The notes under the pieces were generated by a model that was not told the DNA's origin, did not search any database, and saw only the letters and a program-made list of their open reading frames with translations. From IMG/VR virus record IMGVR_UViG_3300025108_004353, positions 1 to 27,442 of that record: a stretch of DNA of 27,442 nt; one strand, given 5' to 3'. A program made the translations under genes and the position numbers. The stretch comes from a virus. Shown here in pieces: positions 4,021 to 25,336 of this stretch. Position 1 is the first letter of the stretch. Every line of letters begins with the position of its first letter.

Positions 4021-5412
4021 ATGTGGCAATATTTAAAGATAGTAGACGACACTGTTTATCAAGGTGTCCGTAAGGTGAACAGAACAGGAATTGATACAAT
4101 TGTTATTCCTAATCAACACTTTAGTCATAACATGGAAGATGGATTTCCTCTTCTTACCACCAAGAAGATGCCCCTTAAGACTATAGCAGTAGAGCTTGAG
4201 GGTTTTATCGGCGGTATCACGAGCAAGAAGTGGTTTCAGGACCGTGGTTGTAAGATATGGTCAGAATGGAGTAGTCCCTTAGGGTGTCCAAGTTGGTTTA
4301 ACGACCAGGAAAGAAAAGAGCATCAGTTAAAGGATGTAGACCTGGGTCCAATTTACGGTTTCCAGTGGCGTTCTTTTAATAAGAGGTATCGTCCTGAACC
4401 TGTAATTATTGAGCCTAACCTTAAACCCTCAGTTTGTGGGGTTGCGTCATATGGACTACCTAAGAAATCAGAGTTAGCAAAAAAGCTTAAAGCTACATGG
4501 TACGCAATGATTCGTAGATGTTATGAACCAAAAGATAAGGACTATAGCCGCTATGGAGGAAGAGGAATCTACGTTGTTAATAGATGGTTAGTTTTCGACC
4601 AATTTTTAGAAGACGTAGATAAACTACCTGGATGGGATGATAAATTAAAAGATTGGTCTGGATACACTCTCGATAAAGATTATTATAAAGACGGATGTTA
4701 TGGACCTAACTCATGCATATGGTTAAGTCATGCTAATCAAGGAATATTAAAACAGTCTATTCAGAATTTTTATGCTATTGACCCTTGTGGTAATGTTGAA
4801 ATTGGACATAATATCAAGGAGTTTGCTGACGAACATGGGTTAGACCCATTTGGTATCTCTCATTGTATATCTGGAAAACAAAGTTCTCATAAAAAATGGC
4901 AATTTTGGAGAGATGAAGAACCAAAAGAAAATAGTAGACCTTACGACCAGCTATCAACCATAGTTAAAACGCTACACGAGAATCCTAATGATAGGCGTAT
5001 GGTCTGCTCGGCTTGGAATCCAAATCAAATATGCCAGATGGCCCTTCCTCCGTGTCACTTTGAATGGACCCTAACTCACATTGATGGAACGCTGAACCTA
5101 CATTGGACACAACGTAGTTGTGACCTTATGCTCGGAGTCCCCTTCAATATTGCAAGTTATGCTTTATTGTTGCTGTTGCTATCAAAGGAAGCTGGCATGA
5201 AACCAGGAAACCTCAGTGGGACGCTGTGTGACTGTCACATCTATGAAAACCAACTAGTAGCTGCCATGGAACAGTTGAAGAGAAAACCAGTAGATTTACC
5301 TCAGTTGGAAATAACTAATTTTACAAATATTTTTGACTGGACACATAAGGATATATTGCTAAAAGACTATGTTAGCCACAACAAGATTGACTTCGGTGAT
5401 GTTGCAGTATAA
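4021..5412 (+). CDS. thyA: thymidylate synthase with in-frame HNH/NUMOD-like insertion
   Basis: 463 residues, about 180-190 more than standard ThyA. The flanks are clear ThyA, which methylates dUMP to dTMP with methylene-tetrahydrofolate. N-terminal RTGIDT (21-26) contacts phosphate; DLGPIYGFQWRSF is at 107-119; the catalytic nucleophile is C345 in LPPCH; QRSCDLMLGVPFNIASY (364-380) carries N376, typical of dUMP specificity. Residues ~125-305 are foreign. WYAMIRRCYEP...YGGRGIYVVNRW and TLDKDYYKDGCYGPNSCIW (about 160-234) resemble a phage HNH endonuclease, and 250-296 resembles a NUMOD1 DNA-binding module. The frame stays open throughout and no intein motifs are visible. The insert falls between the FQWR strand and the DQLSTIV helix, possibly a surface loop; whether the enzyme folds and works is untested. 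GGAG lies upstream of the ATG. Confidence 0.9.
   Translation: MWQYLKIVDDTVYQGVRKVNRTGIDTIVIPNQHFSHNMEDGFPLLTTKKMPLKTIAVELEGFIGGITSKKWFQDRGCKIWSEWSSPLGCPSWFNDQERKEHQLKDVDLGPIYGFQWRSFNKRYRPEPVIIEPNLKPSVCGVASYGLPKKSELAKKLKATWYAMIRRCYEPKDKDYSRYGGRGIYVVNRWLVFDQFLEDVDKLPGWDDKLKDWSGYTLDKDYYKDGCYGPNSCIWLSHANQGILKQSIQNFYAIDPCGNVEIGHNIKEFADEHGLDPFGISHCISGKQSSHKKWQFWRDEEPKENSRPYDQLSTIVKTLHENPNDRRMVCSAWNPNQICQMALPPCHFEWTLTHIDGTLNLHWTQRSCDLMLGVPFNIASYALLLLLLSKEAGMKPGNLSGTLCDCHIYENQLVAAMEQLKRKPVDLPQLEITNFTNIFDWTHKDILLKDYVSHNKIDFGDVAV
4393..4935 (+). mobile_element. HNH + NUMOD1-like homing-endonuclease insertion inside thyA
   Basis: Boundaries are approximate, set by where ThyA similarity stops (after the FQWRSFNKRY segment) and resumes (RPYDQLSTIV). 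The encoded ~180 residues contain an HNH-like core (YGGRGI, LDKD, GPNSC) followed by a short module whose form (FYAIDPCGNVE, FADEHGLDPFGISHCISGK, WQFW) suggests NUMOD1. Almost the whole insert codes for these domains, leaving no room for a group I ribozyme. An in-frame protein-level insertion is therefore the simplest reading. Confidence 0.6.
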
Positions 5413-6941: not shown

Positions 6942-7454
6942 ATGAAAAACGAAGTTAGTAATGAACAATACGAGGAAGCAAATGAAAACTCTGATAATAG
7001 TAATATAATCAGGTCGGTTACCAATAAATTCTCTAGTCTTTTAGATATAGATGAACGTCGAGAGTGTGGACTAGAAGGCCTTTGGAGAGCCCTTCAAAAC
7101 CACGATTACACAAAAAAACAGAAATTTACTACTTCCCTATACAAGTTTGTTCGATGGATGTGCCTAAGAAAAGTTACCAAAAAGCACAGAGACAAAATTA
7201 AGGCCGAAAAGATTGGTGTTTCTACTAGCCAGGAGTTCTACTACGACAGTAATCTTGAAAACAATGTGGTCCTTTCGGACTTAATGTCACAACTTAATGA
7301 CGAAGACCGGGTTTATATTGAACAAAAGCACCTGCAAGGTCATACATTGGAAGAAATTGGCGTTCTTCACGGCTTTACACGGCAGGCTGCAAGCCTAAAA
7401 GTTAAGGATGCAATGTCTAGGTTAAGAACTTTGGCGTATAATAGTGTAGAGTAA
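6942..7454 (+). CDS. sigma-70-family RNA polymerase sigma factor
   Basis: 170 residues, starting 2 nt after the clpP-like gene. The N-terminal half has a region 2-like helix set (DERRECGLEGLWRALQNHDYTKKQKFTTSLYKFVRWMCLRKVTKKHRDK), with the core order of sigma factors: an acidic polymerase-binding helix, then the aromatic/basic -10 binding helix. The C-terminus (LNDEDRVYIEQKHLQGHTLEEIGVLHGFTRQAASLKVKDAMSRLR) is a typical region 4 HTH. This two-domain layout at this size resembles compact ECF-type factors. It probably redirects host RNA polymerase to a subset of phage promoters. The next gene, at 7524, lacks a clear host-type promoter and is one candidate target. Confidence 0.75.
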   Translation: MKNEVSNEQYEEANENSDNSNIIRSVTNKFSSLLDIDERRECGLEGLWRALQNHDYTKKQKFTTSLYKFVRWMCLRKVTKKHRDKIKAEKIGVSTSQEFYYDSNLENNVVLSDLMSQLNDEDRVYIEQKHLQGHTLEEIGVLHGFTRQAASLKVKDAMSRLRTLAYNSVE

Positions 7455-14282: not shown

Positions 14283-15098
14283 ATGAGACGCCGAAAACAA
14301 CAGAAGAAGCAACGTAGAAATAACAACTCTAAACCTAACCATAATGAAGATAAGACGAATAATCGTCCTAAAAAGAAACAGAAAGTTCTTGACCCGTTCT
14401 GGAAACCATATAGACTTAAACCAAGAAGTGATAATCAAGAAGACCTAATCAGGTCTATCAAGTCTAATACATTTACCTGTGTTCATGGACCCGCTGGTTG
14501 CGGAAAGACCCACATTGCGGTCGGTGTTGCTTTACAGCTTTACAAATCAGAGTTCCATTGCTATGATAAGATAGTCTTAGCTCGTCCCGCAGTCGAAGGT
14601 GGCGGGGAGCGACTAGGCTTTATGCCTGGGGACGCAAAGACCAAGGTTGGTAACTACATCGAACCTCTTAATGATGAATTGAGCTATTACATCTCCAAGT
14701 CGGGATTGGCTCAGTTAAAATCTGAAGAGAAGATAAAGATTCAACCCCTGGCCTTTATTCGTGGTAAAACATTCAATAATGCCATCATCATTGTAGATGA
14801 AGCACAGAATGCAACCTACGAACAACTTAAGATGGTGTGGACTCGTCTAGGTATTGACTCTAAGTTAATCTTCTTGGGTGATGTTGCACAAAGCGACCTA
14901 AAAAAGTTTGAACGGGGTGGATATGCCAAACTCCTTAAAAGGATGAAGGGTGTTCACAACTTCGAAATAGCTGAACTTGATATTGTAGACATCCAACGAA
15001 ACGCTATCGTTCGAGACATGCTTGAGCGAGACGCAGAACTTGACGAGGAAGAAGAAAATGCTGCCTCCACTAGGAACGAAGACGCTAGTACTGAATGA
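14283..15098 (+). CDS. phoH: PhoH-like ATPase
   Basis: 271 residues. After a very basic, N/K/R-rich 35-residue N-terminus comes the PhoH ATPase core: Walker A GPAGCGKT (69-76), the conserved KIVLARPAVEGGGERLGFMPGD (96-117), and Walker B IIIVDEAQN (168-176). GDVAQSDLKK then follows as in the family, and the C-terminus is acidic. PhoH proteins are common in phages; their function is uncertain, with links to phosphate stress and RNA handling. An AGAGGA site precedes the ATG by ~10 nt. The 3' end overlaps the HNH gene by 41 nt. Confidence 0.9.
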   Translation: MRRRKQQKKQRRNNNSKPNHNEDKTNNRPKKKQKVLDPFWKPYRLKPRSDNQEDLIRSIKSNTFTCVHGPAGCGKTHIAVGVALQLYKSEFHCYDKIVLARPAVEGGGERLGFMPGDAKTKVGNYIEPLNDELSYYISKSGLAQLKSEEKIKIQPLAFIRGKTFNNAIIIVDEAQNATYEQLKMVWTRLGIDSKLIFLGDVAQSDLKKFERGGYAKLLKRMKGVHNFEIAELDIVDIQRNAIVRDMLERDAELDEEEENAASTRNEDASTE

Positions 15099-15810
15099 CA
15101 ATTACATGCCCTTGGCGGCTGTACCCTGGAAGAAATCGCTTAAAAGGTTGATGGCAGACTCTATTTGTGACCGCTGCAATGGACGGGGTAAGACCCGACA
15201 TGGCAAATGTCCAGATTGTGGAGGCTTGCGAAGACTTCCTAGGGCTGTTTTGGTCTCTAGTTATGAGCAATACCCAATTAAGACGGGGAAGGTAGGCGTT
15301 GTTTATTACCCTCCTGCTGTAATTGCAAGTCAACATCATGTAAATAGGGCCTACAATAAGGCTCCCTATTCTCGTGATAATGTTTTCAAGCGTGATAATT
15401 ACACTTGTCAGTATTGCGGAACCCAGAAGAAAGACTTGAAGGAAGGCAATCCTCTGGAAATTGAGCATGTTGTTCCACGTTCGAGGTGGAATGGTAATGG
15501 TACGGCAACCTGCTGGGCTAATATTGTCACCTCCTGCTTGAAGTGTAATAGGTCTAAGGCTGACTTCTTTCTTGCAAGAGACGAGGATGAAGCCTCTCAA
15601 TCTGAACTTCATGTTCATATGCCGTTGTTCAAAGTGATAAACGGCCAAAAGGTTGAATATAAAAGACCAAAACAACCTTCGACGTTAGAAATCGGGCTAG
15701 GGTTTTCTCCATACGACCCTAAGCTACCAGAGCAATGGAAACCATATGTGTTGTCCATGTTGAGTGAAAAAGAGAGAAAATACCTGCAAGGTTCCCCCGT
15801 AAAGGCCTGA
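15058..15810 (+). CDS. HNH endonuclease with N-terminal zinc module
   Basis: The ATG at 15058 with GAGGA 8 nt upstream is preferred over a TTG at 15022, giving 250 residues. CDRCNGRG...CPDCGG (37-55) is a DnaJ-like four-cysteine zinc motif. The HNH core follows: YTCQYCG (115-121), IEHVVPRSRWNG (135-146) with H137, ANIVTSCLKCNRSKAD (154-169). The two CxxC pairs stabilise the fold and H137 is the general base. This arrangement matches bacterial and phage HNH proteins related to McrA-like enzymes. It may be a free-standing homing enzyme or a DNA processing nuclease. It closes the transcription unit; its final codons form the terminator's left arm. Confidence 0.85.
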   Translation: MLPPLGTKTLVLNDNYMPLAAVPWKKSLKRLMADSICDRCNGRGKTRHGKCPDCGGLRRLPRAVLVSSYEQYPIKTGKVGVVYYPPAVIASQHHVNRAYNKAPYSRDNVFKRDNYTCQYCGTQKKDLKEGNPLEIEHVVPRSRWNGNGTATCWANIVTSCLKCNRSKADFFLARDEDEASQSELHVHMPLFKVINGQKVEYKRPKQPSTLEIGLGFSPYDPKLPEQWKPYVLSMLSEKERKYLQGSPVKA

Positions 15811-24370: not shown

Positions 24371-25336
24371 ATGACAAACATTATCGCCTTTTCTGGCAAA
24401 AAGCAAGCAGGTAAAAGTGCTTCTGCTAATTTCCTCTTCGCTCTCGAAATGGTAGCGTTGCAAACCACAGATGGTGCCTTCGTAGACAAAGAAGGACTTC
24501 TTCGTGTTGTGAGTACAAGACCTGATGTTGAAGGTGGACTAGACATAGGTGTTTTGGACCCATGCAGCCGTAGACCAGAGGTTCAACGATGGTTTATCGA
24601 AACTGGTATATGGCCGACAATCAAGCTGTATTCGTTTGCTGAGTGGCTGAAGACCATTGCCACAGAGGTTCTCGGTCTTACTGATGAACAGGTCTATGGC
24701 ACTGACGAACAAAAGAATAGTCTTACACACTTGAAGTGGGAGGATATGCCTGGGGTCGTGACACAAGAACAGGTGGTTAGTCTTGTGGACGGCCTGCGAG
24801 TTCCACTAAGTGCGGACCTTTTAGAGGTTAATTGGCCTATGCCTTTAGACCCCGGCGGTCCAGATGTCGGTGGCAAACAAAGTTCTGTGCTAGACCAGAT
24901 TGGGGTTATTACTCACAGTCCTGGCCGAATGACTGGCCGTGAAGTCATGCAGCATCTTGGCACTGAAATCTTCCGTAAGATGTACTACGATGTGTGGGCT
25001 AAGGCTTGTATTCGCAAGATTCAAAAAGAGAAAGTGGGATTGGCTATTATTACCGATTGCCGCTTCCCCAATGAAGTAGAAGCAGTCCAAGAGGCTGGTG
25101 GTAAAGTCGTGCGTCTCACGCGAGATATATTTAAGGGTGAGGACCAACACCCTAGTGAAACTGCACTAGACCCTGAAAACTTCGACTGGGACAAGTTTGA
25201 TGCTATTATTGACAACTCTGAACTTTCCTTAGCTGGGCAGAACGAACTGGTTTTTAAACAACTGATGTCGTGGGGGGTTATCTCCGACACTGAAGATGAT
25301 GCCTACGACAAAACTCAAGAGGAAGCTTACGTTTAA
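24371..25336 (+). CDS. deoxynucleoside monophosphate kinase
   Basis: 321 residues. The N-terminal P-loop FSGKKQAGKSASA (7-19) and the segment IITDCRFPNEVEAVQEAGGKVVRLTRD are hallmarks of the phage dNMP kinase family related to T4 gp1. EVMQHLGTEIFRKMYYDVW and IDNSELSLAGQNELV fit its lid and C-terminal parts. The enzyme phosphorylates dNMPs (dTMP, dGMP, modified dCMP in T4). Here it can raise dTMP from thymidylate synthase to dTDP. An insertion of about 60 residues (VTQEQVVSLVDGLRV...SSVLDQIGV) makes it longer than T4 gp1 (241). RBS AGGAG lies 8 nt upstream. Confidence 0.85.
   Translation: MTNIIAFSGKKQAGKSASANFLFALEMVALQTTDGAFVDKEGLLRVVSTRPDVEGGLDIGVLDPCSRRPEVQRWFIETGIWPTIKLYSFAEWLKTIATEVLGLTDEQVYGTDEQKNSLTHLKWEDMPGVVTQEQVVSLVDGLRVPLSADLLEVNWPMPLDPGGPDVGGKQSSVLDQIGVITHSPGRMTGREVMQHLGTEIFRKMYYDVWAKACIRKIQKEKVGLAIITDCRFPNEVEAVQEAGGKVVRLTRDIFKGEDQHPSETALDPENFDWDKFDAIIDNSELSLAGQNELVFKQLMSWGVISDTEDDAYDKTQEEAYV

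Follow-up and report, generated by a model that had tools for sequence, protein, structure and literature searches.

A homing-endonuclease-like domain carried in frame inside thymidylate synthase, apparently without an intron or intein

A common view of homing endonucleases is that association with self-splicing elements frees them to invade conserved coding sequence (PMC3943268). The thymidylate synthase (ThyA) gene td of phage T4 carries such a mobile endonuclease element with co-conversion of its flanks (PMC2988022), features shared by the insert described here; however, the T4 element is a group I intron encoding the GIY-YIG enzyme I-TevI, lies at another position and is spliced at the RNA level. 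Inteins with a homing endonuclease also lie in frame in conserved enzymes and spread by homing (PMC3943268), whereas no splicing domain or junction residues were found in the ThyA insert. The endonucleases mobE and mobA, in phage nrdA and gene 60, occupy critical coding regions with neither intron nor intein (PMC2988022), but they break their host gene up into coding regions that are separate, while the ThyA frame stays whole. Homing endonuclease domains are also fused in frame to an essential gene, fungal mitochondrial rps3 (mentioned in PMC5626475); this fusion is mitochondrial, involves another host protein and does not lie in an internal ThyA loop. The DNA polymerase genes of Herelleviridae have group I introns that encode PHROG_2081 HNH endonucleases (PMC11878797). 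These endonucleases share their profile family and an I-HmuI-like C-terminal domain with the ThyA insert, but each is an ORF with its own start and stop inside a self-splicing intron, whereas the insert is an in-frame internal segment. I-HmuI (1u3e), an HNH nicking endonuclease encoded in an intron of Bacillus phage SPO1, has a similar C-terminal domain; by contrast, the nuclease core of the insert has no clear solved match, and the canonical HNH His is not evident in the insert family, which has LDKD.

The window analysed here is the whole of a viral DNA record (IMG/VR IMGVR_UViG_3300025108_004353; 27,442 nt, or 27.4 kb), with genes for ribonucleotide reductase, PhoH, a UvsX-like protein, a DnaB-like protein and primase. 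A DNA-level search of the window against phages found nothing. Elsewhere in the window, an HNH endonuclease ORF (15022-15810; PHROG_16726, 7e-22) overlaps the end of a phoH-like gene, and two separate ORFs (2115-2750 and 6942-7454) both match RNA polymerase sigma factor families. A deoxynucleoside monophosphate kinase (24371-25336) has a matched stretch about 60 residues longer than its profile and possibly carries an extra segment.

The thyA ORF (4021-5412, + strand) is a single uninterrupted frame of 463 codons with Pfam and PHROG matches. Pfam Thymidylat_synt (PF00303; 2.8e-81) matches it in two stretches, the second from residue 293, and about 185 additional amino acids (residues ~121-308) occupy a surface loop between them. 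Alignments with loci L004, L007 and L008 and with solved ThyA place the N-terminal part of the enzyme at residues 1-120 (4021-4380), ending in QWRSFN, and the C-terminal part at 4945-5412. Homology puts N120 and D309 on either side of the insert, with outer limits at 4381-4944 (residues 121-308), close to the 4393-4935 given in the original prediction; the loop measures 193 aa in the window vs 12-37 aa in uninterrupted relatives. The nearest relative found, L004, is 76% identical to the window over ThyA columns, appears from its sequence to have a similar downstream gene, and has a loop of only 35 aa with no insert. The original prediction had described an in-frame interruption without a stop and intact C345 and N376, and on each of these counts it was right. 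Also present are the QRSCD motif around the catalytic C345 and residues E58, W80, Y112, H346, Q364, R365, S366, D368, H406 and Y408. The prediction would have been refuted had uninterrupted relatives contained the same segment as a native extension, but they lack it.

Residues 133-304 match PHROG_2081 'HNH endonuclease' at 5e-49 (6.4e-50 with the insert alone), which is far beyond chance, and the profile matches 17 of 17 inserts. The family core reads W..M..RCY......Y..YGG.G[VI].V...W, followed by LDKD and then by the I-HmuI-like C-terminal domain. In the window, the nuclease-like core (W..M..RCY...YGGRGI...LDKDYY) spans 4471-4752 on the + strand, with AlphaFold pLDDT mostly above 90, and all residues invariant among the 17 inserts are retained. 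This putative nuclease core is assigned by family membership only. The C-terminal domain (4753-4923, +), predicted to bind DNA, is the sole domain with a solved structural match. A profile built from the 17 inserts (A4) matches 1u3e at 1.5e-5, and 1u3e is the top Foldseek match (1.4e-4; VIA Z 8.6 over 56 residues) of a separate AlphaFold model of the insert, the alignment being confined to this domain; the window's own match to I-HmuI_NUMOD-like (PF22083) falls below the Pfam cut-off. The HNH/NUMOD1-like label of the original prediction therefore needs amending: the endonuclease part agrees with the PHROG_2081 match, although no canonical HNH Pfam family was found at E<=1 in the window insert or in nine other fused proteins, while the DNA-binding module resembles I-HmuI_NUMOD-like and gave no match to Pfam NUMOD1. 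Longer inserts have an additional N-terminal domain, of which the window keeps just the last stretch, NLKPSVCGVASYG (4417-4455, +; aligned with L001, L014, L135 and others), the remainder being absent. The sequence HANQ in the window insert had raised the suspicion that a catalytic Asn was lost, but this was dropped, as the position varies across the family. The modelled C-terminal domain also resembles the anti-CRISPR AcrVA3 (9kja; Foldseek 0.022, VIA Z 6.2), so the two may have a fold in common. In phages BSP9, EFLK1 and Stau2, the DNA polymerase gene is in two pieces with a PHROG_2081 relative between them. A search for related loci using the insert alone found nothing.

The same insert family occurs in frame in more than 20 distinct ThyA ORFs and nearly always at the same loop. 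The carriers are phages infecting Bacillus, Klebsiella and E. coli, many IMG/VR contigs and two bacterial chromosomes. Same-loop carriers include Bacillus phage 015DV002 and the Klebsiella jumbo phages KP13-7 and phiKp_21; RB49-like phages (Krischvirus) have a decayed insert there, and that of L023 is truncated. A DNA pattern bridging insert and ThyA, run on IMG/VR and on bacterial and archaeal genomes, returned many more fused ORFs, counts that say nothing on frequency because the pattern was chosen for LDKD and a fixed spacing. Loop lengths fall into groups, with 12-37 aa in uninterrupted genes and near 190 aa or 250-285 aa in fused ones. We take the main insertion site to be between E. coli ThyA residues W101 and D110. 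A same-family insert occupies a second ThyA loop, between the IWxEW and LGxxYG motifs, in Enterococcus phage vB_EfaM_A2 (L230:1668-3143) and a Paenarthrobacter plasmid (L086:3980-5449), and the two loops used are presumably those with short native insertions in eukaryotic ThyA. On a tree of 57 ThyA sequences, presence of the insert changes at least 12 times, with seven changes forced by well-supported branches; patchy presence at one site alongside empty-site relatives is the distribution expected of a homing element.

Internal in-frame insertion looks peculiar to ThyA within the sample taken: among 80 ORFs of the broader YGGxG family from IMG/VR, none was fused to ThyA and one was fused N-terminally to a topoisomerase subunit. 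In L286, a YGGRGI-family endonuclease lies upstream of a topoisomerase subunit in one open frame. Two other candidate hosts were rejected. The 'portal protein' of Vibrio phage vB_VpP_BT-1011 (L229:2002-2676) is a misannotated free-standing HNH protein of the family, and the APSE-7 DNA polymerase carries what appears to be a true intein.

The two bacterial cases are Calidithermus chliarophilus DSM 9957 and Demequina iriomotensis NBRC 109399. In each, no ThyA was detected besides the interrupted one, and ThyX was not found; because both genomes are drafts, this absence is provisional. Thymidine salvage could mask a ThyA defect in either organism. Both genes appear to sit in an ordinary thyA-folA neighbourhood. 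In a family-level sample for Calidithermus, 18 other genomes have matches to both halves of ThyA and lack the insert (a nineteenth has a match to one half only), as do 36 genomes in a genus-level sample for Demequina. Between the end of one match to the fused gene and the start of the next lie 12 nt in one sister and 3 nt in another. As a separate observation, a Thaumarchaeota MAG (L217, L218; G003:C79) contains a 544-aa open frame with two tandem ThyX matches, and an interrupted ThyA lies on another contig of the same MAG.

Comparison with relatives revealed imported thyA sequence beside the insert. On either side of an 810-nt insertion, Bacillus phages 015DV002 and 015DV004 share about 99% identity; however, some 165 nt just downstream of it are about 60% identical, after which identity recovers. 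The dip is one-sided in D. iriomotensis (58-74% downstream vs 80-86% among sisters) and two-sided in C. chliarophilus (63-81% near the insert vs 92-100% further downstream), while in KP13-7, compared with phage Muenster, the entire centre of thyA has been replaced. The reverse view is offered by the IMG/VR phages L120 and L133, whose inserts are 86-97% identical at the nucleotide level and whose thyA ends are 66-77% identical, with synonymous divergence of 0.40 in the insert and 1.16 in ThyA. In the window, a probable co-conversion tract upstream of the insert (residues 81-121; 4261-4383, +) sides with the insert-bearing L108 and not with the nearest relative L004: diagnostic sites number 13 for L108 vs 3 for L004 within it and 12 vs 70 outside (Fisher p=3.5e-7), although the block was picked after inspection and L004 is 24% different, making this weaker evidence than the close pairs. 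Co-conversion of flanking thyA sequence, another mark of homing elements, is found in these cases, as a probable tract in the window. Such imported flanks are the footprint that would be expected of double-strand-break repair from an insert-bearing allele; they reveal recombination centred on the insert and by themselves are no proof that the inserted protein made the break. The thyA gene of Krischvirus LF73P4 (L235:301-1521) differs from that of RB49 chiefly within one tract, which follows the decayed insert on its downstream side and is possibly another conversion event.

The enzyme seems to accommodate its insert. AlphaFold models the window fusion with a pLDDT of 93.4 and a pTM of 0.86, the insert being folded, and the modelled ThyA core superposes on E. 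coli thymidylate synthase over 263 of 264 residues (1.2 A, Z 37.6); the ThyA fold is thus predicted to be complete despite the insert. Between L120 and L133, dN/dS is 0.11 for the insert and 0.23 for ThyA, and between two Krischviruses it is 0.16 and 0.17, respectively. These ratios indicate purifying selection on both parts, and ThyA appears to work with the insert in place.

The explanation that we favour, at a probability of about 0.74, is that a homing-endonuclease element resides within the thyA reading frame, needing neither intron nor intein, and is kept as a tolerated surface domain. The fused gene would be translated as one chain, with ThyA folding around the insert, which would protrude from the loop after the QWR strand. 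The PHROG_2081 (I-HmuI-related) module would then make a cut or nick in an uninterrupted thyA, either that of a co-infecting phage or that of a host, and repair from the insert-bearing allele would copy the insert together with some flanking thyA. Of the two options left by the original prediction, a tolerated surface-loop domain or an unrecognised splicing form, the former is the better supported, given the bacteria with a sole detected ThyA, the modelled core, the purifying selection on the insert and the open frames in every fused ORF examined.

The strongest competitor, to which we would give about one chance in four, is that the insert is a dead passenger, an old and immobile endonuclease insertion retained since exact in-frame loss is rare. 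The degenerate inserts of Krischvirus and the truncated one of L023 are what this would predict, as is the loss from the window insert of most of the N-terminal domain seen in longer inserts. However, the window insert retains every family-invariant residue, recent transfers are evident elsewhere (015DV002, Demequina, Calidithermus, L120/L133), and purifying selection on the insert is strong in L120 and L133. The window copy itself may be of either kind, dead or still mobile.

Protein splicing, in which a non-canonical intein-like insert would excise itself and ligate ThyA, is improbable. Many inserts, at both sites, begin and finish with common motifs (N-terminal VxVxPRI/V, C-terminal YRYxL), and the sequence of the essential host enzyme stays intact, as protein splicing would lead one to expect; the end motifs can also be read as a strand pair closing the domain at its base. 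The aligned inserts have no conserved Cys, Ser or Thr at the junctions and no His-Asn before the C extein, AlphaFold fits the insert without excision, and the degenerate Krischvirus insert persists while ThyA is still under purifying selection. The intein signature for which the original prediction had left room was looked for and not found: no Pfam intein domain matched in ten proteins, whereas a like search showed the intein in the APSE-7 DNA polymerase. That polymerase (L231:229-3210) has an apparent true intein with an initial Cys and a final HN followed by Cys. The ThyA fusions are presumably not spliced after translation.

Less probable again is a group I (or II) intron whose reading frame is open by chance and which is spliced at the RNA level. 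Precedent exists both in the intron-encoded PHROG_2081 endonucleases of phage DNA polymerase genes (PMC11878797) and in thyA as a known intron host (T4 td). A third parallel is the split thyA of the Bacillus licheniformis phage KKP_4048 (also KKP_4047 and KKP_4050), where a 292-nt stop-rich intervening sequence (L010:2068-2359), probably a group I intron undetected by Rfam, lies between CKLYQR and GDAFLG, a different site from that of the in-frame insert. Coding homology in the window spans nt 4417-4926 of the insert, however, leaving about 36 nt at the 5' end and about 18 nt at the 3' end, in which a ribozyme core would not fit. A stop directly follows the 5' junction in most group I introns (PMC3073962), and introns of the KKP_4048 type contain stops, whereas the frame is open over both junctions in every fused ORF examined; selection on the insert codons also acts at the protein level. 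These lengths agree with the earlier judgement that a group I intron has no room. The Rfam search was negative for introns in the inserts, which counts little because it also missed the certain or probable phage introns used as controls (DNA polymerase L088-L090 and KKP_4048).

That the segment is a regulatory extension native to ThyA and never was mobile is hardly credible. Natural length variation at the same loop speaks for it; the patchy distribution, the homology of the insert to endonucleases that are free-standing or encoded in introns, the sisters with an empty site and flank identity of up to 99%, and the second insertion site all speak against it.

The open-licence literature yielded no description of such an insert in ThyA, and an earlier description elsewhere is possible. 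The protein is of a known kind, a homing endonuclease, and no description of its way of life was found there: in frame, internal, recurrent and apparently unspliced within an essential enzyme. We lean, with modest conviction, towards a class of homing elements free of any splicing module, which enter a tolerant loop in frame, join their ends through terminal strands (VxVxPRI/V and YRYxL) and remain as a permanent domain. The phage pair 015DV002/015DV004, differing in the insert, and the two culturable type strains make the ThyA fusions directly testable.

The insert accounts for the odd length of td in RB49-like phages, and the recurrent fusions would amount to domain-insertion experiments done by nature on a classic enzyme. 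If such a class of elements exists, two free-living bacteria would have a chimera of ThyA and endonuclease as their sole dTMP synthase, and the dimeric state of ThyA would mean that the nuclease is displayed in pairs. Invasion of an essential protein by homing endonucleases may thus be possible with neither intron nor intein, and the ThyA fusions suggest another route into conserved coding sequence, by which the parasite becomes a domain of its host protein.
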